Shown: in pieces, positions 3,996-11,189 of the stretch
Layout: each line of letters begins with the position of its first letter
How positions within the stretch are numbered: the first letter of the stretch is position 1
Virus record (IMG/VR): IMGVR_UViG_3300025889_000462
Location: 1 to 34,234 of that record
DNA: 34,234 nt
From: a virus
Reading direction: 5' to 3' (one strand)
Notes under the pieces: generated by a model
Told to the model about the DNA's origin: nothing
The model's database searches: none
Seen by the model: the letters and a program-made list of their open reading frames with translations, nothing else
Program-made: the position numbers and the translations under genes

Positions 3996-4028
3996 TGTGT
4001 TCTCCTTTGTTAAAGTTTAGTTTATGTA

Positions 4029-4056
4029 AATATAATCATATCCCAACTAATTACAA
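4029..4056 (-). promoter_or_regulatory. Leftward sigma70-like promoter with TAGTTGGGATA motif
   Basis: On the minus strand: -35 TTGTAA (4056-4051), a 16-nt spacer identical to that at 3216-3231, and -10 TATATT (4034-4029). It reads into the MGMD protein gene at 3995. Confidence 0.7.
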
Positions 4057-4065
4057 GTCTAAAAA

Positions 4066-4341
4066 TAAAAAAATTTTTATCAGAAGATTTTTCCAAATCC
4101 TCTGGAGCTGGTGCACCAGTCTTCTTCCTATTACCATTTTCTCACAATCCTACCCTTTGAACGAGAACGAGGATAAAAAGTCTTCGCCAGAGCTGCGTAG
4201 CCAGCCAGGATCAATGGTTCATGACCTGCAGTACCTGCCCTATATTCCGAAAACGAGGAACGAGACAAGGACGATCAGGCCAAGAACCAATTTGGGAAAG
4301 GCTAATAGGAACAACATTCCTAAAAGCAAATACATATTTCC
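4066..4341. repeat. 276-bp non-coding region with CTGGTGCACCAG and ACGAG-type repeats
   Basis: It holds a second exact copy of CTGGTGCACCAG (4108-4119), AACGAGAACGAGG (4160-4172) and AAACGAGGAACGAGACAAGG (4251-4270). Rightward frames crossing it (for example 4221-4559) have no SD and no recognisable product and are dismissed. It separates the promoter at 4029-4056 from the end of the 4342-4521 gene. Confidence 0.55.
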
Positions 4342-4703: not shown

Positions 4704-5150
4704 TTACACCTCCCCCAATATTTCTTTAGCATGTTTGTCACCGCCCGCTGCATCCTTCTGGATCATCTCCTTCATCTCTTGATGCTCACGCTCGCAGTAA
4801 TCGCGAGCGAGGATCTCGACGGCTTGCCATACCATCGCATTCTTGAAGACATCGTTTGTGGTAACATAGCTTTTGCTTGGAGAATATCCAGCAAAAAGAT
4901 CTAGCGCAGATTGCCATCCCGAGTCTTCGGCATAATCCTGACAAAGCTCAAAGATCTCATCCCCATGGATATCGTATAGTTCACAAGTGTCCTTGTAGTA
5001 AGTCAATCCAGGGAAACCGCTGATGCAGCCATGCATGGCTACTTCGTCTGCAGCTAGTCCTGAGTCGGGATCATCAAACCGCGAATTAATTAATTCGCGG
5101 AATGAAATTTTTTCTTCTGTGTTGTATTTATTGGTTGCTTGGTTGTCCAT
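4704..5150 (-). CDS. Conserved hypothetical protein resembling DUF7222
   Basis: 148 residues. The central block GCISGFPGLTYYKDTCELYD (residues 41-60), then HGDEIFELCQDYAEDSG and a C-terminal NAMVWQAVEILARDYCE helix, resemble the plasmid/phage DUF7222 layout (GCxSGxxxxLxYYxDTxxFYDxHxDEI, then WxAxExxA), whose function is unknown. The assignment is from memory and tentative. The ATG at 5150 has AAGGAGGG upstream; the gene overlaps the end of the upstream 106-aa gene by 23 nt. Codons are noticeably richer in G+C than in the rest of the window. A perfect 22-nt palindrome (5079-5100) lies within the coding region at residues 17-24. Confidence 0.75.
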   Translation of the reverse strand: MDNQATNKYNTEEKISFRELINSRFDDPDSGLAADEVAMHGCISGFPGLTYYKDTCELYDIHGDEIFELCQDYAEDSGWQSALDLFAGYSPSKSYVTTNDVFKNAMVWQAVEILARDYCEREHQEMKEMIQKDAAGGDKHAKEILGEV

Positions 5151-5448
5151 GTGTGATGCCCTCCTTATTGGTTTTGTATTTTATCATTTGACTTAAATGT
5201 AGATGTTTCAGTATCTGTGGTGAGTTATCTAATTTTCCAACACCTTTCTTCTGATCACCCTTTGTGATTCGCACCCACATCTTCTCGTGTTTGTTTTTAT
5301 TCTTAAACCATACATACACGTAGTCCCGCATCTTTCTTTGCAGTTCAAGTTTCTTGATCGTGAAGTAGGTTTCTTTTCCGTGTTCAGGGCATGACCAAAT
5401 CATATTCTCGGCCTGCTCCCATTTGTCTGTCTTTGACAGTTTAGGCAT
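5128..5448 (-). CDS. Basic hypothetical protein, first gene of an accessory operon
   Basis: 106 residues, Lys-rich, with no family recognised. The N-terminal part contains WSCPEHGKETYFTIKKL (about residues 18-34), reminiscent of one half of a zinc-binding knuckle, but only one Cys is present, so zinc binding is unlikely alone. Strand-like YVYVWFKNK and MWVRITKGD segments follow. The ATG at 5448 has AAGGAG six bases upstream and lies about 25 nt after the start predicted from the promoter at 5481-5509. It heads the operon 5128-4342. Confidence 0.75.
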   Translation of the reverse strand: MPKLSKTDKWEQAENMIWSCPEHGKETYFTIKKLELQRKMRDYVYVWFKNKNKHEKMWVRITKGDQKKGVGKLDNSPQILKHLHLSQMIKYKTNKEGITHGQPSNQ

Positions 5449-5480
5449 AGTTACTCCTTGTTAGTTGTTTAGTTATTCTA

Positions 5481-5509
5481 CATATAAGAATAGTTGGGAC
5501 ATTCGTCAA
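5481..5509 (-). promoter_or_regulatory. Leftward sigma70-like promoter, TTGACGAAT type, with inverted TAGTTGGGA motif
   Basis: On the minus strand: -35 TTGACG (5509-5504), a 17-nt spacer and -10 TATATG (5486-5481). The spacer contains TCCCAACTA, the reverse complement of the TAGTTGGGA found in the other accessory promoters, so the putative operator is present in opposite orientation. Confidence 0.7.
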
Positions 5510-5768
5510 GTCTTTTTTTAAAAAAATTTTTCCAACCAAAGTGCCATCAGGAAACTTCTGGCGTCCCAGCTCCTTTCTTCTGTAAGAAAGATAGGTAGAT
5601 ATTTATCTTCAAACGAGAACGAGAGCTGAAGTTCTCTGAAGGAAGTTTCTGGCACCAGTGCTTCTGGGACCGGTGATCCTGATTAGTTATATAGGAAAAA
5701 CGAGAACGAGAGCGAGAAACGAGGACGAGATCCTCTGACGCTGCCTGGCATCCCAGCTTCTGGTGCAG
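5510..5768. repeat. Non-coding region with ACGAG-type and CTGGCRTCCCAGC-type repeats
   Basis: A 16-nt unit occurs as CTGGCGTCCCAGCTCC (5558-5573) and CTGGCATCCCAGCTTC (5745-5760). AAACGAGAACGAGAG lies at 5611-5625 and a longer run of ACGAGA/GCGAGA units at 5696-5730. A related ACGAGAAACGACG run (5797-5819) lies within the 3' end of the VRR-NUC gene. No convincing gene is present. Confidence 0.6.
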
Positions 5769-6164
5769 TTACCGGGATCCGGTAAGGTTTAATAAGGAAA
5801 CGAGAAACGACGACGGGAGATCCTTCAACGAGATTACCGTATCGGGAACCAGGGTTCGTGGATCAGTGAACACGGTGCGAGGTCTGTAGAGTTTAAGGAC
5901 GCTCTCCGAGAGGGGTCTATTGCAGATAATGACAATGCCACCATGTTTAATATAGTTGTTTATCCAAGCAATTTGCCATTTAGACAGGGGCGGATACTTG
6001 CTGGGGCTTGCCTTTAATTCTAACCAAAAAGCAGTGCCTTGATGACAGCAATGTACGTCGGGTATTCCGTTAACAGTTCTACTTTCTATTCTTGTGAAAT
6101 GTAAATTTTTCAAGCATTTTTTGAGGCGTTGCCACAACAGAGCTTCTGGAGTTCTTGCTACCAT
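5769..6164 (-). CDS. VRR-NUC-type endonuclease
   Basis: 131 residues with the PD-(D/E)XK nuclease core of the VRR-NUC family, small nucleases often encoded by phages and related to Holliday junction resolvases. Glu27 (TRIES), Asp36 in NGIPDV (32-37), and Glu49 and Lys51 in FWLELKAS are in the expected order, followed by LSKWQIAWI (60-68) with the usual Gln. It probably cleaves branched or damaged DNA during replication or packaging. The ATG at 6164 lies 86 nt inside the upstream peptidase gene, in another frame, with only a weak AAGAG-type SD. The last codons run through a repeat (5797-5819), suggesting that the C-terminus was remodelled. Confidence 0.9.
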   Translation of the reverse strand: MVARTPEALLWQRLKKCLKNLHFTRIESRTVNGIPDVHCCHQGTAFWLELKASPSKYPPLSKWQIAWINNYIKHGGIVIICNRPLSESVLKLYRPRTVFTDPRTLVPDTVISLKDLPSSFLVSLLNLTGSR

Positions 6165-6519
6165 TCTTGCTCTTTAAACCTTTTTTTATTAACGTCAAGA
6201 TTTTAGGATTGTCACGGAATATTTGACATAACTGATTGCTTAAAATGTTCACCACATTCTCCTCTATCTTGTCGTCCTCAAGAGCAGCTCCATCATCTTT
6301 CAAGCCACCATACCACACAGCAGCGTGTACTATTTCATGTAAAAGTGTATTGGCTAACGCAGTATCAGATTGGTCATCTGCTAATGTAATCATAGCATCT
6401 TTGGACTCAAACATTCCAAAGTTTTCATCTTTGAATTTAGCATCGCTGGAAACAACCAACGACACATCTTCAAAACTAATCTTTATCTTCTTCGGTAGTG
6501 ATTTTAATAGTTCCGACAT
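6079..6519 (-). CDS. Zinc metallopeptidase-like protein (HExxH)
   Basis: 146 residues. LLHEIVHAA (59-67) provides the zinc-binding HExxH motif (His61, Glu62, His65); a Glu at about 86-87 (KIEENVVN) could be the third ligand. The arrangement resembles SprT-like or ImmA-like phage peptidases, but the exact family is not certain. The C-terminal Ser/Lys-rich tail (from about residue 115) overlaps the nuclease gene. The ATG at 6519 has no clear SD and lies 53 nt beyond the small terminase gene. Possible roles, all inferred, are processing a virion protein or degrading a host factor. Confidence 0.8.
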   Translation of the reverse strand: MSELLKSLPKKIKISFEDVSLVVSSDAKFKDENFGMFESKDAMITLADDQSDTALANTLLHEIVHAAVWYGGLKDDGAALEDDKIEENVVNILSNQLCQIFRDNPKILTLIKKGLKSKNGSKNSRSSVVATPQKMLEKFTFHKNRK

Positions 6520-6572
6520 TTGTGCTTATATTGCCACCATGTACTCTATGAAACTCTGTCCAAAAATTATCT

Positions 6573-7079
6573 TCAGTCCACTTGCTCAATTTCGATCGTT
6601 TTCGCATTGTGACCGTCGATTTTTTTCGAGAGCTCTTCAAGTTTTTTCTCGAGTTCATCGCGACTCATCCCTTCCATTCCTGTTACGGTTATTTGTTTTT
6701 GATCTACAAATAGATTTGCTATTTGCCCAGAGCGATACTCAGCATTAATCGCAGCAGCGAATTGTTCTTTCTTCATTGCCGCATTTGCCATGTATTCGAA
6801 TCTTTTATGACGTCTTAATTTATCAGAATATTTTTTTTCTTCTTGTTCTTTCAATTTGTCTATCAACATACAAACATGAGGACTAATTTTACGATTAGTA
6901 AGTCTGGAACCGATAGCAGCAGCAGTTGTATCAGTCATTTCTTTGTCCTTATCTCCAAAAACTTCCTTGACGATTGCAGTCTTTGACATCGTTCCCCAAT
7001 TTTCAATATACATCTTCACAAACATTTCTTGTTTGGGAGTTACATCATCAATCGTTAATAAGTGTCTTGCTTTAGGCAT
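6573..7079 (-). CDS. terS: Terminase small subunit-like protein
   Basis: 168 residues. The N-terminal part (LTIDDVTPKQEMFVKMYIEN, residues 7-26) is the PKQ..FV..Y pattern that opens phage small terminases, followed by a helical DNA-binding region with SRLTNRKISPHV. A long central helix and a C-terminal oligomerisation-like coiled coil (SRDELEKKLEELSKKID) follow. The small subunit recognises the packaging site and recruits the large subunit. The frame is open to 7115, but the ATG at 7079 overlaps the previous stop in a TAATG junction and is chosen. The large subunit gene is about 4 kb downstream rather than adjacent. Confidence 0.82.
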   Translation of the reverse strand: MPKARHLLTIDDVTPKQEMFVKMYIENWGTMSKTAIVKEVFGDKDKEMTDTTAAAIGSRLTNRKISPHVCMLIDKLKEQEEKKYSDKLRRHKRFEYMANAAMKKEQFAAAINAEYRSGQIANLFVDQKQITVTGMEGMSRDELEKKLEELSKKIDGHNAKTIEIEQVD

Positions 7080-7351
7080 TATACTAAGCCACCATACTTG
7101 TATTTCTTTTTCCAACCAACAAAAATTTCTGGCTTGCTAAAACCTTTCCAACTTTCAGATCCTCCTGGAAAATCTACTTTGCCCATATCAAAAGATTTAC
7201 CAATGTCGAAAGATATTTCACTACCACCCTCCGTTGTATAAGTTGCACCTATTTTACCATGCGCAGATTTAGCATCCACATCAACTCCTTTTGCAGGTTT
7301 AGATGAAATTGTACGACCTTGTGCGGAAATGTTCAATTTAGCTTTGCCCAT
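7079..7351 (-). CDS. Hypothetical Gly/Ser-rich protein upstream of terS
   Basis: 90 residues of unknown function. The sequence is Gly- and Ser-rich with alternating strand-like segments (FDIGKSFDMGKVDF) and ends in KYGGLV, a C-terminal pattern that, as I recall, is frequent in proteins near marine podovirus terminases. The ATG at 7351 has AAGGAAAATT directly upstream. It opens the leftward operon containing the terminase small subunit, peptidase and nuclease. Its promoter should lie in the 7360-7440 region, where a pseudo-palindrome at 7387-7400 could be an operator; no clean -35/-10 pair was found. Confidence 0.75.
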   Translation of the reverse strand: MGKAKLNISAQGRTISSKPAKGVDVDAKSAHGKIGATYTTEGGSEISFDIGKSFDMGKVDFPGGSESWKGFSKPEIFVGWKKKYKYGGLV

Positions 7352-7380
7352 AATTTTCCTTATATAGATTTTTACAACAA

Positions 7381-7535
7381 CTATATACTACTCAAGTAGT
7401 TTTCAAAAGCCGATCCCAGAAGAAGTGTATAGAGGTACGTTATTAGTGTACCTAGGTACATTAGCAGGTACATGTAAAAAAGTACTTAAGTAGTTGATAT
7501 TATTATATTATTCGTTAGAGGTACGTTAGGTACAC
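7381..7535. promoter_or_regulatory. Cluster of GTAC-centred palindromes and repeated operator-like sites
   Basis: Seven GTAC tetramers occur between 7435 and 7533. They include the 14-nt palindrome TGTACCTAGGTACA (7447-7460), TACATGTA (7469-7476) and AAGTACTT (7480-7487). TAGAGGTACGTTA is repeated exactly at 7430-7442 and 7516-7528. The pseudo-palindrome ACTACTTGAGTAGT (minus strand, 7387-7400) recurs as ACTACTTAAGTACT (7481-7494). A T-rich tract follows at 7540-7568. This looks like a regulator-binding region or replication origin. Confidence 0.5.
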
Positions 7536-7598
7536 TATATTCTGGTTTGTTTTTATTTTTTTTATTTCTGTCGTAATAATCTATATAGGAGAAAAAAT

Positions 7599-7627
7599 TT
7601 GACAATTCCGTAGCACTTTGATAAACA
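7599..7627 (+). promoter_or_regulatory. Rightward sigma70-like promoter for candidate small RNA
   Basis: Consensus -35 TTGACA (7599-7604), 17-nt spacer, and -10 TAAACA (7622-7627) preceded by TG at the extended -10 position. The predicted start, near 7634, coincides with the first base of an inverted repeat. Confidence 0.5.
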
Positions 7628-7633
7628 AGTCTT

Positions 7634-7733
7634 GGCAATCGAAATCCTTTTTTGTTTTCATAATCGATTGCCTCTTTCCTTTCAACAAATGGAGATTATT
7701 ATGACATGGATTCGGAGGCTAAGCCTCCATTTT
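7634..7733 (+). ncRNA. Candidate rightward small RNA (about 100 nt)
   Basis: It lies downstream of the promoter at 7599-7627. The first nine bases GGCAATCGA (7634-7642) pair perfectly with TCGATTGCC (7664-7672) around a 21-nt T-rich loop, and the 3' end is the GC-rich hairpin GGAGGCTAAGCCTCC (7714-7728) followed by ATTTTG. A GGAGA then ATG at 7691-7703 could start a 23-codon leader ORF running through the terminator hairpin, so an attenuator is an alternative. No known RNA family is recognised. Confidence 0.4.
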
Positions 7734-7745
7734 GTGTCTAACCCC

Positions 7746-7774
7746 TTGACGAATACCATATCTAGTACTATATA
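7746..7774 (+). promoter_or_regulatory. Strong rightward sigma70-like promoter
   Basis: -35 TTGACG (7746-7751), 17-nt spacer, -10 TATATA (7769-7774). The start would be near 7781. The first nine bases, TTGACGAAT, are shared with the leftward promoters at 5481-5509 and 20401-20429. No protein gene lies downstream on this strand before a terminator. Confidence 0.7.
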
Positions 7775-7780
7775 GGATAT

Positions 7781-7859
7781 TGTTTAGTTTAATCGACAAG
7801 AAGTCGATACTCTTTGTTAGAGTGAAAATAGCTCCTAGCCCCCTAGGGGCTATTTTTTT
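7781..7859 (+). ncRNA. Candidate rightward three-hairpin small RNA (about 78 nt)
   Basis: Between the promoter at 7746-7774 and a strong terminator, the transcript would fold into three consecutive hairpins: ATCGAC/GTCGAT (7792-7808, loop AAGAA), ACTCT/AGAGT (7809-7823, loop TTGTT) and the terminator stem (7825-7856). There is no SD or credible ORF. It is antiparallel to all nearby genes and its 3' end overlaps the end of the 7850-8278 gene by a few bases. No known RNA family is recognised; a regulatory RNA is inferred. Confidence 0.6.
7825..7859 (+). terminator. Strong intrinsic terminator, probably bidirectional
   Basis: A 14-bp stem (AAAATAGCTCCTAG with CTAGGGGCTATTTT, one G-U pair) closes a CCCC loop, and T7853-T7859 form the rightward U-tract. 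Read leftward, the same stem ends in ATTTTC and overlaps the TAG stop of the 7850-8278 gene, so it may stop transcription from both sides. Confidence 0.8.
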
Positions 7860-8278
7860 AACTCCTCTATCTTGCTCTTTACCCATTTAATTCTGGCCAT
7901 GATCCGTGATCGTTGTTCCTTGGTTAAAGTACCTCTATACACCCTATAACATGCCCTGTATTCGAGCCATAAACGCTGTATACGCGTAAACTTCACTGAC
8001 CCCTGGTCACGGAGCCATTGATACCTATCTTTGACAAATTCTGGGTCTATTTCGGCATAATAACAAACCTGCTCAAAATCCTTAGATTTACCTAACAACC
8101 ACGTATGAGCTTCCTTTTTCCTGTAAGCATCAATCTTGTTCAACGAATCACTAGAAACATCCTCAAATGCCACCACAATAACCGCTCGCCACAATCTCAC
8201 CTCGCTCGGCACCTTCTCCTCGAGAAGATGCTTCGCAAGGTTAATGCCCATAAGTTTTAATAAGTTTAACGAGTACAT
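7850..8278 (-). CDS. Conserved hypothetical phage protein
   Basis: 142 residues. The pattern LWRAVIVVAFED, then AHTWLLG, then DFEQVCYYAEIDPEFVKDR (about residues 29-87) is shared by a conserved phage protein of unknown function that I recall from various phages (WRAVxxxAxxDA, AxxWL, DFxxVCxxAGxDPxxV). The C-terminal third is basic and helical. Two starts are possible: ATG 8278, or ATG 8251, which overlaps the previous stop by only 11 nt; neither has a good SD. The stop lies in the terminator stem at 7825-7859. Confidence 0.82.
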   Translation of the reverse strand: MYSLNLLKLMGINLAKHLLEEKVPSEVRLWRAVIVVAFEDVSSDSLNKIDAYRKKEAHTWLLGKSKDFEQVCYYAEIDPEFVKDRYQWLRDQGSVKFTRIQRLWLEYRACYRVYRGTLTKEQRSRIMARIKWVKSKIEELKK

Positions 8279-8447
8279 CTCTGTAATACCGGATAATTTT
8301 AGGATTCATTTTTTTCTCCAAGGTAAATTCATAGTCTTGGAATACCGTATCAATAAAATCATTGCGTTCCATCGCAGATAATTGCTTGATATCTTTCTGA
8401 TTAACGGAAGGTAGGTCTTTTATAAATTCGTCAAAATCATCATCCAT
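8241..8447 (-). CDS. Small acidic hypothetical protein
   Basis: 68 residues. The N-terminus is very acidic (MDDDFDEFIKDL), followed by a helical body with MERNDFIDTVFQDYEF. No family is recognised. It has no clear SD; the 3' arm of an inverted repeat (8452-8459) lies immediately upstream of the ATG and may influence translation. It precedes the 7850-8278 gene with a short overlap. Confidence 0.7.
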   Translation of the reverse strand: MDDDFDEFIKDLPSVNQKDIKQLSAMERNDFIDTVFQDYEFTLEKKMNPKIIRYYRDVLVKLIKTYGH

Positions 8448-8451
8448 AAGC

Positions 8452-8506
8452 TATGTCAGCAACATTCAGAAGACATGGATATATAAGGGAGAAAGCTACT
8501 GACATA
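8452..8506 (-). repeat. Inverted repeat TATGTCAG/CTGACATA in an intercistronic gap
   Basis: Perfect 8-nt arms (8452-8459 and 8499-8506) enclose 39 nt. In the leftward transcript the structure would lie between the stop at 8509 and the ATG at 8447. It has no U-tract; RNA processing or translational control are possibilities. Confidence 0.4.
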
Positions 8507-8508
8507 AT

Positions 8509-8745
8509 TTATTTGACAATATGTAAGCCTAAACGACTTCTTTTCATTTTCCGACCCTCATTCCAAGAGTCTTCAAATAAATCAATCATTTGACCCATCC
8601 CAGCACCAAAATCATTACCCATATGTAATTGGAACATTACCGTAGTAATCTCCTCATACTTTTTTTTATCAGGACACATCTGTGCAAGTTCTGTCAACAC
8701 ATCTTGCAATTTAGAAGTTACCTGTACTTGGGTCTTCTCAGCCAC
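8509..8745 (-). CDS. Small hypothetical protein (GTG start)
   Basis: 78 residues of unknown function. Predicted mostly helical, with CPDKKKYEEI and a Gly/Met-rich segment (MGNDFGAGMGQMIDLF, about residues 42-57), ending in a basic tail. The start is GTG at 8745, supported by AAAGGA seven to eight bases upstream. It is the first gene after the promoter at 8849-8878, with about 100 nt of leader containing a hairpin. Confidence 0.72.
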   Translation of the reverse strand: MAEKTQVQVTSKLQDVLTELAQMCPDKKKYEEITTVMFQLHMGNDFGAGMGQMIDLFEDSWNEGRKMKRSRLGLHIVK

Positions 8746-8803
8746 AAATTTCCTTTGGTTAAAAGTTAAATTTAATAGTTAAGATTAGTGATTCGTGGGA
8801 CAT

Positions 8804-8823
8804 AAGCTGATTTGCCTCAGCTT
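8804..8823 (-). terminator. Hairpin in the leader between operon end and GTG gene
   Basis: Arms AAGCTGA (8804-8810) and TCAGCTT (8817-8823) with a six-base loop. It lies downstream of the 8858 stop and of the promoter at 8849-8878, so it could be a terminator/attenuator for the ParB-side operon or a leader structure. Weak T-run only. Confidence 0.35.
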
Positions 8824-8848
8824 TTCATCGGGTGCTTAGGATGATTTG

Positions 8849-8878
8849 TTTATACTACTATTTAGAGGACTGTGTCAA
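8849..8878 (-). promoter_or_regulatory. Leftward sigma70-like promoter inside the end of a small gene
   Basis: On the minus strand: consensus -35 TTGACA (8878-8873), 18-nt spacer, -10 TATAAA (8854-8849). It overlaps the last codons of the 55-aa gene and would transcribe the GTG-start gene at 8745 and the genes beyond. Confidence 0.55.
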
Positions 8879-9025
8879 ATCTTTTTCTTTAATCATTTTA
8901 CTATTTCCATATTCATCTTTTTGAATAACCCATAGATCGTTACCATCAAAATAATAACCATCAATACTAAATCTTGTTTTTCCTCTTACCTTACCGTATC
9001 TTGCTACTGTTGTTCTTGCTCTCAT
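8858..9025 (-). CDS. 55-aa hypothetical protein
   Basis: The frame begins MRARTTVARYGKVRGK, continues with a strand-rich middle (RFSIDGYYFDGNDLWVIQ) and ends in a charged tail. It resembles a small basic N-terminus on a beta-hairpin fold; no family is recognised. The ATG at 9025 has a consensus SD (GGAGG, 5 nt away) and overlaps the stop of the 33-aa membrane gene (ATGA). Strong translation signals and tight packing make it credible despite its size. Confidence 0.7.
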   Translation of the reverse strand: MRARTTVARYGKVRGKTRFSIDGYYFDGNDLWVIQKDEYGNSKMIKEKDLTQSSK

Positions 9026-9123
9026 TTGTTCCTCCAATAATTAAATAAATACCAAAGTAAAAAGGCAGTTCCTCCTACATAAACTGCCTCCATACCTAAA
9101 AAGAATAATTCTCTTTCACTCAC
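9022..9123 (-). CDS. 33-aa single-span membrane microprotein
   Basis: GTG start at 9123 overlaps the TGA stop of the upstream RHH-like gene (GTGA), and its own TGA overlaps the next ATG (ATGA). The product has a short polar N-terminus (SERELFFLGMEA) and one predicted membrane helix (YVGGTAFLLWYLFNYW), ending RNK. There is no SD; expression would rely on translational coupling. Membrane microproteins of this sort can be holins, holin modulators or host-interaction peptides; which one cannot be told. Confidence 0.5.
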   Translation of the reverse strand: MSERELFFLGMEAVYVGGTAFLLWYLFNYWRNK

Positions 9124-9332
9124 TTTTGTTTCAGTTTAAAGCCTTGGGCAAGTAAATCTGACCAAACTTTATCTGGAGCCTTATTCTTTTTCTTAGCTAA
9201 CGTAGTCACCATTTCATGTACTAATTTTGAAATCATAGCACCTGGTTTTCGGTAGCCGTGTTTACACAACGCTTGCAGCACATAATAACTTTCCTTATCT
9301 ACTGCAACCGACTTCCATTTCTCGATGTTCAT
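9120..9332 (-). CDS. Ribbon-helix-helix-like DNA-binding protein
   Basis: 70 residues. The N-terminus WKSVAVDKESYYVLQAL has the RHH layout of a beta-strand followed by a helix starting at DKES. The turn RKPGAMISKLVHEMV then matches the second helix of Arc/MetJ-type repressors. A Lys-rich segment and short tail follow. Such proteins bind operators as dimers, so this is the best candidate in the window for binding the repeated promoter motifs. It lies 2 nt after the ParB-like gene and has no strong SD, suggesting coupled translation. Fold-level assignment only. Confidence 0.65.
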   Translation of the reverse strand: MNIEKWKSVAVDKESYYVLQALCKHGYRKPGAMISKLVHEMVTTLAKKKNKAPDKVWSDLLAQGFKLKQK

Positions 9333-9334
9333 GG

Positions 9335-10180
9335 TTATTTTTTCTTTCTGTTGTATTGATTATATCCTGCAGCACGTCTTGCAAGTTCCTTTTCAGTCAC
9401 CTCTACGTACCCTCGATCTTCTACCCATCGTTGGAATTTAATCGGTTTATGTCTTCCTTTCAATTGGAAATTATAAACCTGTTCAAACACCTTAATCATC
9501 GTAGTTCGATCGGATGCATTAAGAATTTTACCCCCATTCGTTTTAATGGCATGTAAAAATCTTGCAAACTCAAAATCAGGATGTTTGTAGAAAATTAAAA
9601 ACACATTTAGGAAAGTTCGTTGCTTAGCAACTTTACCTAACACTCCTACAAGTTTTTGGAAATCCTCCCCAAAACGTTGCGCCCAACCAAAATCCGTAAC
9701 TTTATATTTACCGGATTTAAAATCAGCGGACAAAGTACTATCACGATTGACTCGTCTAGCACCTGCTACAATCGCAACTTCAAGTCCTAATTCATACTTC
9801 GTTGTTAAATGTTTTAACAATTGGTAATCCTTTTGATTTGCGTGTGGACGATCATGCCAAAAATTTAAGTAACCTTCTAACGTCCAATTTTTTCTATCGG
9901 AATTTAATCTAGTTACATCTAGGTCGTTACCGTTATCGACAATATAAAATCGAACCGGTCTTCCTAATTGTTTACAGGCAAGAATACGATGCTGTCCGTC
10001 GAGTACTTTATAACTAGAAGTGACTCGAATGGGATCATCTAAATGACGTTCTTCCATTTTTTCTGCAAGCTTCTCAGCCCAATTTTCATTTACGACACGA
10101 TTTCCTTTTACATTTTTAAAAAGATCGTAGTCCGTTGTTTCAAAGACTTTGCCTTTGATTTCTTTTACTGCATTACTCAT
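9335..10180 (-). CDS. ParB/sulfiredoxin-like domain protein
   Basis: 281 residues. The N-terminal domain (about 15-90) has the ParB-like order: NVKGNRVVNENWAEKLAEKM, then PIRVTSSYKVLDGQHRILA, with the diagnostic DGQHR at residues 61-65, followed by FYIVDNG. In phages this fold occurs in DNA-binding, CTP-binding or nuclease proteins. The C-terminal part (about 100-281) is helical and basic with no recognised domain. The frame is open to 10192, but the ATG at 10180 has a consensus SD (GGAGG, 5 nt away). It precedes the RHH-like gene, recalling partition-type gene pairs, though no ParA was seen. Confidence 0.82.
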   Translation of the reverse strand: MSNAVKEIKGKVFETTDYDLFKNVKGNRVVNENWAEKLAEKMEERHLDDPIRVTSSYKVLDGQHRILACKQLGRPVRFYIVDNGNDLDVTRLNSDRKNWTLEGYLNFWHDRPHANQKDYQLLKHLTTKYELGLEVAIVAGARRVNRDSTLSADFKSGKYKVTDFGWAQRFGEDFQKLVGVLGKVAKQRTFLNVFLIFYKHPDFEFARFLHAIKTNGGKILNASDRTTMIKVFEQVYNFQLKGRHKPIKFQRWVEDRGYVEVTEKELARRAAGYNQYNRKKK

Positions 10181-10194
10181 GTTTACCTCCATTG

Positions 10195-10311
10195 TTAGTG
10201 TTTAGTTAATGCAAAATAAATTACTCCTAGTAATACCAGGAATAGTTTAGGCGGAATGATTACAATTAATAATGCAATCAGTCCGATAAAAAAACGATCG
10301 ATGATAGCCAT
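10195..10311 (-). CDS. 38-aa membrane microprotein
   Basis: The ATG at 10311 overlaps the stop of the previous gene (TAATG). The product is almost entirely hydrophobic: DRFFIGLIALLIVIIPPKLF followed by LVLLGVIYFALTKH, that is one long or two short membrane helices around a PP kink. No SD is visible, so coupling to the upstream gene is likely. It could be a holin-like or membrane-tethering peptide; function unknown. Confidence 0.55.
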   Translation of the reverse strand: MAIIDRFFIGLIALLIVIIPPKLFLVLLGVIYFALTKH

Positions 10312-10595
10312 TAGTTCGGCCTCGCAATCGCTTCTTGTTTGTCGCGCTGCTCTTGTCGGCAGTGCAACTCATCCATGATTAGTTGTTCGGCAAAGCCTTC
10401 ACTAATCGGGGATATCCTGTCTTCATTAATAATGACTTCAAGATTTGTTAATCGTAATTTTGCATCAATCCATGTGGGATCGCTTGCATCAATCGGATTA
10501 CCTCGATAGTCAAATTCATGAAGTTTGGATAAGATGTTATCTACTTCAGCAACCATCATACGAAAAGCTTCTGAAAGAGATTTTGTTTTTACCAT
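10311..10595 (-). CDS. Hypothetical helical protein, first gene of leftward operon
   Basis: 94 residues, no family recognised. The N-terminal half is a long amphipathic helix (SEAFRMMVAEVDNILSKLHE), followed by a charged region and a Gln/Arg-rich C-terminus. The frame is open to 10631, but the predicted transcription start of the promoter at 10621-10648 is near 10614, so ATG 10595 (or 10613, almost leaderless) is more plausible. The SD before 10595 is weak (AGAAG). It heads the operon that includes the 38-aa membrane peptide, ParB-like and RHH-like genes. Confidence 0.65.
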   Translation of the reverse strand: MVKTKSLSEAFRMMVAEVDNILSKLHEFDYRGNPIDASDPTWIDAKLRLTNLEVIINEDRISPISEGFAEQLIMDELHCRQEQRDKQEAIARPN

Positions 10596-10620
10596 GCTTC
10601 TGTTTTTTATCATGTGATTA

Positions 10621-10648
10621 TATATAAACATATCCCAATTAATTGCAA
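10621..10648 (-). promoter_or_regulatory. Leftward sigma70-like promoter with TTGGGATA motif
   Basis: On the minus strand: -35 TTGCAA (10648-10643), a 16-nt spacer containing TTAATTGGGATATG, and -10 TATATA (10626-10621). The spacer matches those at 3216-3231 and 4035-4050 with few changes. It is divergent from the rightward gene at 10685. Confidence 0.65.
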
Positions 10649-10684
10649 GTGATATTTTTAAAAAAATTCGTGTTATGATTCTAT

Positions 10685-10918
10685 ATGTTAGAATTATTTG
10701 CAGTTTATGGAATGTTATGTGTTTTTGATCCTAATGCTGAATCAGGGCGAAATTGTATGAATTTCTGGGAAGATCCTATTGTGCACCACACAAAAGAAAA
10801 ATGTATAGAAAAATCAAGAGAAATGGGCCAAAACATTGAGGAAAAGTTCGCAAAAGAAGGCTTGCAAATACAAGAATTAACCATATGGTGTGTTCCTACA
10901 AAACATCAAAAATCATAA
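10685..10918 (+). CDS. Small Cys-containing hypothetical protein
   Basis: 77 residues. The hydrophobic N-terminus (MLELFAVYGMLCVF) could be a short membrane anchor or weak signal sequence. It is followed by Cys24, Cys39 and a C-terminal IWCVPTK. The spacing of cysteines around a KEKCIEKSREMGQNI helix is a pattern I recall from small phage proteins of unknown function. No SD is present; a -10-like TATGAT (10674-10679) ends only 5 nt before the ATG, so a leaderless transcript is possible. It is the first gene of a short rightward group surrounded by leftward genes. Confidence 0.7.
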   Translation: MLELFAVYGMLCVFDPNAESGRNCMNFWEDPIVHHTKEKCIEKSREMGQNIEEKFAKEGLQIQELTIWCVPTKHQKS

Positions 10919-10958
10919 AGTATTGATTTTACGTGAAAAACTATGTTAAGATATTCCC

Positions 10959-11189
10959 ATGACAGCTTATAGGTTTCAGGCTCGATACTTAGGAAAATAT
11001 TTTTCTGAAGTTGTGCATGCACCTACTGCTGAAGATGCTGGATTAGGATTTGCAAAATTAATTGCAGATGGAAAAATCCAAGCAAAACCGGAGGGGGTTT
11101 ATACACCAAATCGCCTCTATGTAACATATGAGGAAATAGATGAGCAAAGCACATCAAATCCTGGCCAAGAAGATAAGCTTGGAAAGTAA
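10959..11189 (+). CDS. Small hypothetical protein
   Basis: 76 residues, no family recognised. The start MTAYRFQARYLGKYFSEVV followed by APTAEDAGLGFAKLIADGKI resembles the strand-then-AEDA-helix layout of small phage proteins. The C-terminal tail is polar. No SD precedes the ATG; TAAGAT lies 6-12 nt upstream, so this gene may also be leaderless with its own promoter. The last 50 nt overlap the next gene. Confidence 0.65.
   Translation: MTAYRFQARYLGKYFSEVVHAPTAEDAGLGFAKLIADGKIQAKPEGVYTPNRLYVTYEEIDEQSTSNPGQEDKLGK

Follow-up and report, generated by a model that had tools for sequence, protein, structure and literature searches.

Does the largest gap between open reading frames (ORFs) in this pelagiphage record hold a gene for a small RNA, and if so, how might that RNA act? 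The window, i.e., the whole stretch of DNA analyzed here, is a 34,234-base record of a virus that infects marine SAR11 bacteria, an HTVC023P-type pelagiphage contig; the large terminase subunit shares 71% identity with its counterpart in Pelagibacter phage HTVC023P. The gap lies between the ORFs at 7351 and 7850. All genes neighboring it are leftward, while the predicted RNA unit is rightward and is located at the boundary between the early and late leftward genes. Gene order around the RNA region is kept in contigs retrieved by terminase. The first-pass annotation, made without database searches, had described the gap as unique in size and the unit as opposite to the nearby genes, and both descriptions held.

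The predicted RNA unit and its nearest relatives

The unit starts with the −35 element TTGACG (7746-7751, + strand), which was read directly and is followed after a 17-nt spacer by the −10 element TATATA (7769-7774, +). The same −35 word and spacing are present in five other contigs (L161, L008, L159, L160, and L162), and GGA comes next after the −10 element in all six sequences. TTGACG-N17-TATATAG occurs exactly once in the window's 34 kb. With 9 of 12 consensus positions and without the final T of the −10 element, the promoter is missed by a stricter promoter scan, and the earlier wording "near-consensus" was too strong. The predicted small RNA of about 79 nt (7781-7859, +), with its start inferred from the −10 element and its end placed at the end of the T7 tract at 7859, agrees with the ~78 nt proposed initially.

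The sequence 7781-7859 folds into three hairpins at −30.5 kcal/mol compared with −14.2 ± 2.7 for shuffled sequences (z = −6.1; 0 of 200 shuffles as good). Hairpin 1 (AUCGAC/GUCGAU; 7792-7808, +) and hairpin 2 (ACUCU/AGAGU; 7809-7823, +), both taken from the fold, give a weaker signal on their own (7781-7823; z = −2.6; 5 of 200 shuffles as good), and most of the significance of the fold is therefore owed to the terminator. The latter (7824-7859, +) has a stem of 15 pairs in the fold, two of them G.U, a loop of 4, and a U-tract at 7853-7859; its hairpin covers 7824-7857. Seven U follow the stem on the rightward strand, whereas the leftward strand has an A.C mismatch in the stem and only four U. 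Terminator-like sites in 5000-11000 numbered 8 compared with 3.3 ± 1.9 in shuffles. Thus, direct reading and the fold bear out the claim of a rightward promoter, three hairpins, and a U7 terminator. A tRNA search of the region found none, a search of 4,227 Rfam families at the gathering threshold and at relaxed E-values gave nothing convincing, direct DNA similarity search in phage records returned nothing for the RNA region, and the exact terminator sequence was not found in viral contigs.

The unit runs toward the leftward early block and meets its last gene (7850-8278, −) at the 3′ end. The terminator T-tract lies over the final codons of that gene (KK and stop), and the predicted RNA and the gene share about 10 nt (7850-7859). 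The gene encodes a 142-aa protein without an assigned function. The protein had no match in Pfam or PHROG, its AlphaFold2 model is all-helical (pLDDT 94.6), and a fold search against the PDB gave no match at E ≤ 0.001; lacking a fold or family match, it offers no firm functional hint. We note that a single-sequence scan with this gene found no relatives, and that an alignment query was required to find those used below.

Only one near relative covering the RNA region was found, and further searching added none. This contig, L161, encodes proteins that are mostly 86-100% identical to those of the window and has the same promoter and hairpin 1; being identical, hairpin 1 carries no covariation information. 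Hairpin 2 has lost its closing pair in L161, leaving four pairs, and is without covariation support. The terminator stem reads AUAGCCCUUG...CAAGGGCUAU in L161 and AUAGCUCCUAG...CUAGGGGCUAU in the window. Aligned from the common UAGC/GCUA base, three pairs differ by two-sided changes and one by a one-sided change, all are still paired, and the T7 tract is kept. The one-sided change, from U.G to C-G, leaves a pair in both sequences only on the rightward strand. A second lineage (L008, L159, L160, and L162), in which the homologues of gene 7850-8278 are about 51-53% identical, has TTGACG-N17-TATATAGGA with a different spacer sequence and its own hairpin. On comparing L159 with the remaining three contigs, GGGGGAUA/UAUCCCCC of this hairpin is seen to become GGGGGUUA/UAACCCCC, with pairing retained. 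The promoter, the stems, the terminator, the conserved place and strand, and covariation in relatives are shown by sequence. Stem conservation and the absence of a conserved ORF across the hairpins had been proposed as checks on the RNA: L161 retains the promoter and hairpins with compensatory terminator changes, the second lineage retains the promoter, and no such ORF occurred.

The gap is not fully gene-less. It includes a 24-codon ORF (7701-7775, +; MTWIRRLSLHFVSNPLTNTISSTI) with a Shine-Dalgarno-like GGAG site upstream, as well as a second, upstream terminator-like hairpin. The first 12 bases of the ORF, ATGACATGGATT, and the GC-rich hairpin just 3′ of them are kept in L008, L159, L160, L161, and L162, in which the peptide continues differently; the ORF is possibly a tiny peptide gene with a terminator at its end. 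Tentatively, a second rightward unit of the window's subclade lies at 7599-7733 (+), with TTGACA (7599-7604), 17 nt, TAAACA (7622-7627), and the hairpin GGAGGC/GCCUCC (7714-7728, +) with a T-rich tail. Beside the RNA unit, a control region (7352-7600, no strand assigned) contains divergent copies of ATAATCTATATAG at 7360-7372 (−) and 7576-7588 (+) that bracket short direct and inverted repeats (7430-7537). The gaps of relatives contain the ATAATCTATATAG pair as well, one member of which directly precedes the small terminase gene, and the pair may represent divergent promoters. Short repeats occupy the same place in the gaps of L022, L027, L029, L039, and L048 with phage-specific sequence: the repeat word is AGGTACRTTA in the window and GGGACACCAT or GATACACCAT in relatives. 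These differences look as if the specificity of a binding protein had shifted in parallel, a possibility only.

Predicted rightward RNAs in the wider HTVC023P-type group

Most of the contigs fetched by terminase have a different but comparable rightward arrangement in the space past the homologue of gene 7850-8278. Its promoter consists of TTGTCC or TTGACC, 17 nt, and TATANT or TACANT, and the RNA comprises, in this order, a variable 5′ hairpin, a long stem of the CCUGGGGG/CCCCCAGG type with the loop GCUCUCU, and the 3′ motif GACCACCAUGACUA. A pattern scan returned 77 stretches, 40 of which are AT-rich and constitute the wider family; the high-GC matches were dismissed as chance. At pattern-found loci with the homologue of gene 7850-8278, the RNA is convergent with that gene in 37 of 37 and lies −1 to 26 nt from its end in 34 of 37. 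In L044, L151, and L092, the RNA is 1261, 1261, and 175 nt from the gene, respectively, with the motifs retained.

Because the pattern scan selects for the motif, 80 loci picked solely by the protein of gene 7850-8278 served as an unbiased test. The covariance model R1, built from 24 distinct elements, matched the opposite strand past the homologue in 76 of the 80 loci at E < 1 and in 71 at E ≤ 0.02. Some of these contigs had also given training sequences, and the 76 matches represent 54 distinct aligned rows; matches outside the training set include L043 (1e-10), L028 (5e-8), and the cultured phage HTVC023P (0.0012). In HTVC023P, the predicted RNA of about 100 nt is placed on the minus strand of MN698239.1, near 10681-10781. 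By eye only, the four R1-negative loci contain rightward promoter-like and hairpin-like words. Of 53 distinct RNAs, 39 have an upstream promoter score that reaches the 95% level of shuffled sequences.

In 67 elements taken together, 655 stem pairs are Watson-Crick, 104 are G.U, and 2 are A.C, and most positions are occupied by several types of pair. The stem search by design favors pairs and G.U, and controls were therefore needed. A sequence's own arms scored 15.3 compared with 10.4 ± 3.6 for arms swapped between sequences, and the score dropped to 13.3 if A.C, the wobble of the other strand, was allowed in place of G.U; stems obtained with neither wobble favored contained 16 G.U and zero A.C pairs. 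Together with these controls, the excess of G.U over A.C argues that the structure forms in the rightward RNA. Among phages whose neighboring proteins are only about 40% identical, the loop and tail hardly change, in contrast to the variable stem and 5′ hairpin. The family pattern was absent from one genome per species in 84,980 prokaryote species, and a DNA similarity search in phage records with a family member gave chance matches only. We also considered GAGAGC...ATG on the gene strand as a ribosome site for a small ORF and rejected this candidate, as the ATG is missing in several members.

Other variants were observed among these contigs. Just past the gene homologue, L312 has a rightward ACTCTTAGTTAGTAGAGT followed by CCTGGGGTTATTTTTT, which resemble hairpin 2 and the terminator end of the window, and has no R1 match. 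At the same place, L371 and L381 keep GCTCTCTTGCCCCCGAGG and end in eight T, with the left stem arm seemingly absent; this version is possibly an intermediate between the wider family and the terminator-ended forms. In L012, at about 4000-4150, we noticed by eye a rightward GTGACA, 17 nt, TATAAT, and a hairpin AAAAGCAGG...CCTGCTTTTTT beside different neighboring genes.

Is the window's RNA a member of this family? It meets the family's position, as a rightward unit that faces the 3′ end of gene 7850-8278, and the promoter feature, a σ70-type sequence directly upstream with 17-nt spacing. Compared with the wider family, it has a true U-tract terminator; common to both are the place, strand, kind of promoter, hairpins, and convergent gene. 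R1 gave no match in the window with default filters and, with filters off, matches at chance level only (at most 8.5 bits), and neither the loop GCUCUCU nor the 3′ motif is present in 7781-7859. Hairpin 2, ACUCUUUGUUAGAGU in the window and GCUCUUUGUUAGAG in L161, is similar to the family loop GCUCUCUUUGU of L029 and L034, and the L161 version contains GCUCUUUGU, which is similar to the same loop. This likeness may hint at common descent and proves nothing. Since position, strand, and promoter agree but the sequence and R1 do not, we refer to the window's RNA as a positional counterpart and not as a proven family member.

The conserved position is the strongest evidence for an RNA gene. We consider it very likely that a real rightward RNA is made from the unit at 7781-7859. 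The first-pass proposal of a stand-alone regulatory RNA is supported, while transcription and a regulatory role are still inferred in the absence of expression data.

A putative mechanism and its rivals

Our working reading is that the unit encodes a regulatory RNA similar to lambda OOP, placed where the early genes give way to the late ones. From the σ70-type promoter, host RNA polymerase would begin transcription near 7781 and halt at the terminator at 7824-7859. The RNA would bind leftward early transcripts that extend to, or beyond, the end of gene 7850-8278; the pairing would favor decay of the early mRNA, and this decay would help to keep early and late expression apart. For the reading as a whole, in which transcription, timing, and pairing partner are all inferred, we see the odds as slightly below even. 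Against it stand the short overlap with the coding sequence, the absence of the family motifs from the window's RNA, and the reliance on one close relative.

The short overlap, together with the RNAs that are displaced from the gene in three loci with the motifs kept, makes a role in trans a serious rival, one that we hold to be somewhat less likely than the OOP-like reading. In this alternative, the exposed GCUCUCU loop and the tail GACCACCAUGACUA of the wider family bind host or phage RNA or protein, the convergent gene is a mere neighbor, and the window's version is a fast-diverged relative or a replacement. The near invariance of loop and tail beside proteins that are only about 40% identical supports it, and the retention of both motifs in L044, L151, and L092 fits it better than the OOP-like reading; the similarity of GCUCUUUGU in L161 to the loop GCUCUCUUUGU is suggestive only. 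On the other hand, no target emerged: the tail complement showed no enrichment relative to control in 15 SAR11 genomes, rRNA loci have only 7-mers in common with it, and its occurrences in phage loci are essentially confined to the element and a terminase coding stretch. In addition, the window's RNA lacks the tail. A bolder version, which we hold to be less likely than not, remains possible. HTVC023P-type pelagiphages would have a new family of trans-acting RNAs that capture a host component in infected cells by means of an invariant loop and 3′ tail, and in the lineage of the window this RNA would have been replaced or remodeled into a shorter terminated form with its promoter at the same place.

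Alternatively, the hairpin could be mainly a terminator or boundary of the leftward early block, with the rightward promoter-like sequence incidental and no RNA gene present. The hairpin lies directly past the stop codon of the leftward gene and could work both ways. However, we regard this explanation as unlikely: read leftward, the stem has the A.C mismatch and four rather than seven U; the U.G to C-G change in L161 preserves a pair in both sequences on the rightward strand alone; two lineages retain the promoter; and the wobble pairs of the wider family are on the rightward strand.

Two further explanations appear very unlikely. The first takes the wider-family RNA as a leader, i.e., as the 5′ untranslated region of an mRNA with its start codon at the AUG of GACCACCAUGAC. 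In L044 (4703-5302, −), L132, and L151, a 199-aa ORF on the RNA's strand does have the AUG of the conserved 3′ motif as its first codon, with a match to PHROG 2954 (annotated "ferrochelatase") and only a weak one to the 2OG-Fe(II) oxygenase family; however, in other members the frame stops after 2-15 codons without a common peptide, no Shine-Dalgarno sequence precedes the AUG, and the window's unit ends in a terminator. According to the second, transcription from the promoter opens or primes an origin at the neighboring repeats, as might be suggested by the phage-specific short direct and inverted repeats just upstream and by lambda pO, which neighbors the lambda origin and has a part in controlling replication (PMC12197685), but transcription heads away from the repeats, an origin has not been demonstrated here, and OOP RNA is not the replication primer (PMC12197685).

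In the open-access literature searched, text searches of the two papers on the HTVC023P-type group and its transcriptome returned no non-coding RNA, a silence that is no proof of novelty. An RNA gene conserved at the early/late boundary, also in cultured HTVC023P, offers a concrete starting point for studying how pelagiphages control their genes, and the loop and tail, being conserved, are directly usable as bait for the RNA's partner.

Comparison with known phage RNAs

Lambda OOP RNA, after which we named the OOP-like reading, is an antisense RNA whose leftward transcript runs from pO to tO, the latter lying within the 3′ end of cII (PMC12197685, PMC5869508). The predicted RNA of the window resembles it as a short RNA with its own promoter and terminator that faces an early gene at its 3′ end and terminates inside that end, and in both cases the promoter adjoins a repeat-bearing control region (PMC5869508, PMC12197685). 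The two differ in that OOP overlaps cII by 52 bases (PMC5869508) compared with about 10 nt in the window; moreover, we found no sequence relation, and the window's neighboring gene is not recognizably cII. Repression of the OOP type, through RNase III-dependent mRNA decay, is invoked for the window's RNA by analogy only, without data. P22 sar and lambda aQ serve as functional parallels only; both are phage antisense RNAs and reduce the amount of a regulator (PMC12197685). Cyanophage CfrI of S-PM2 has another host and another gene and sits between psbA and a homing endonuclease gene (PMC12197685), but, like the RNA predicted here, it is small, antisense, and located where a gene ends, at the 3′ end of psbA, in a marine lytic phage, and it is present in several cyanophages (PMC12197685).
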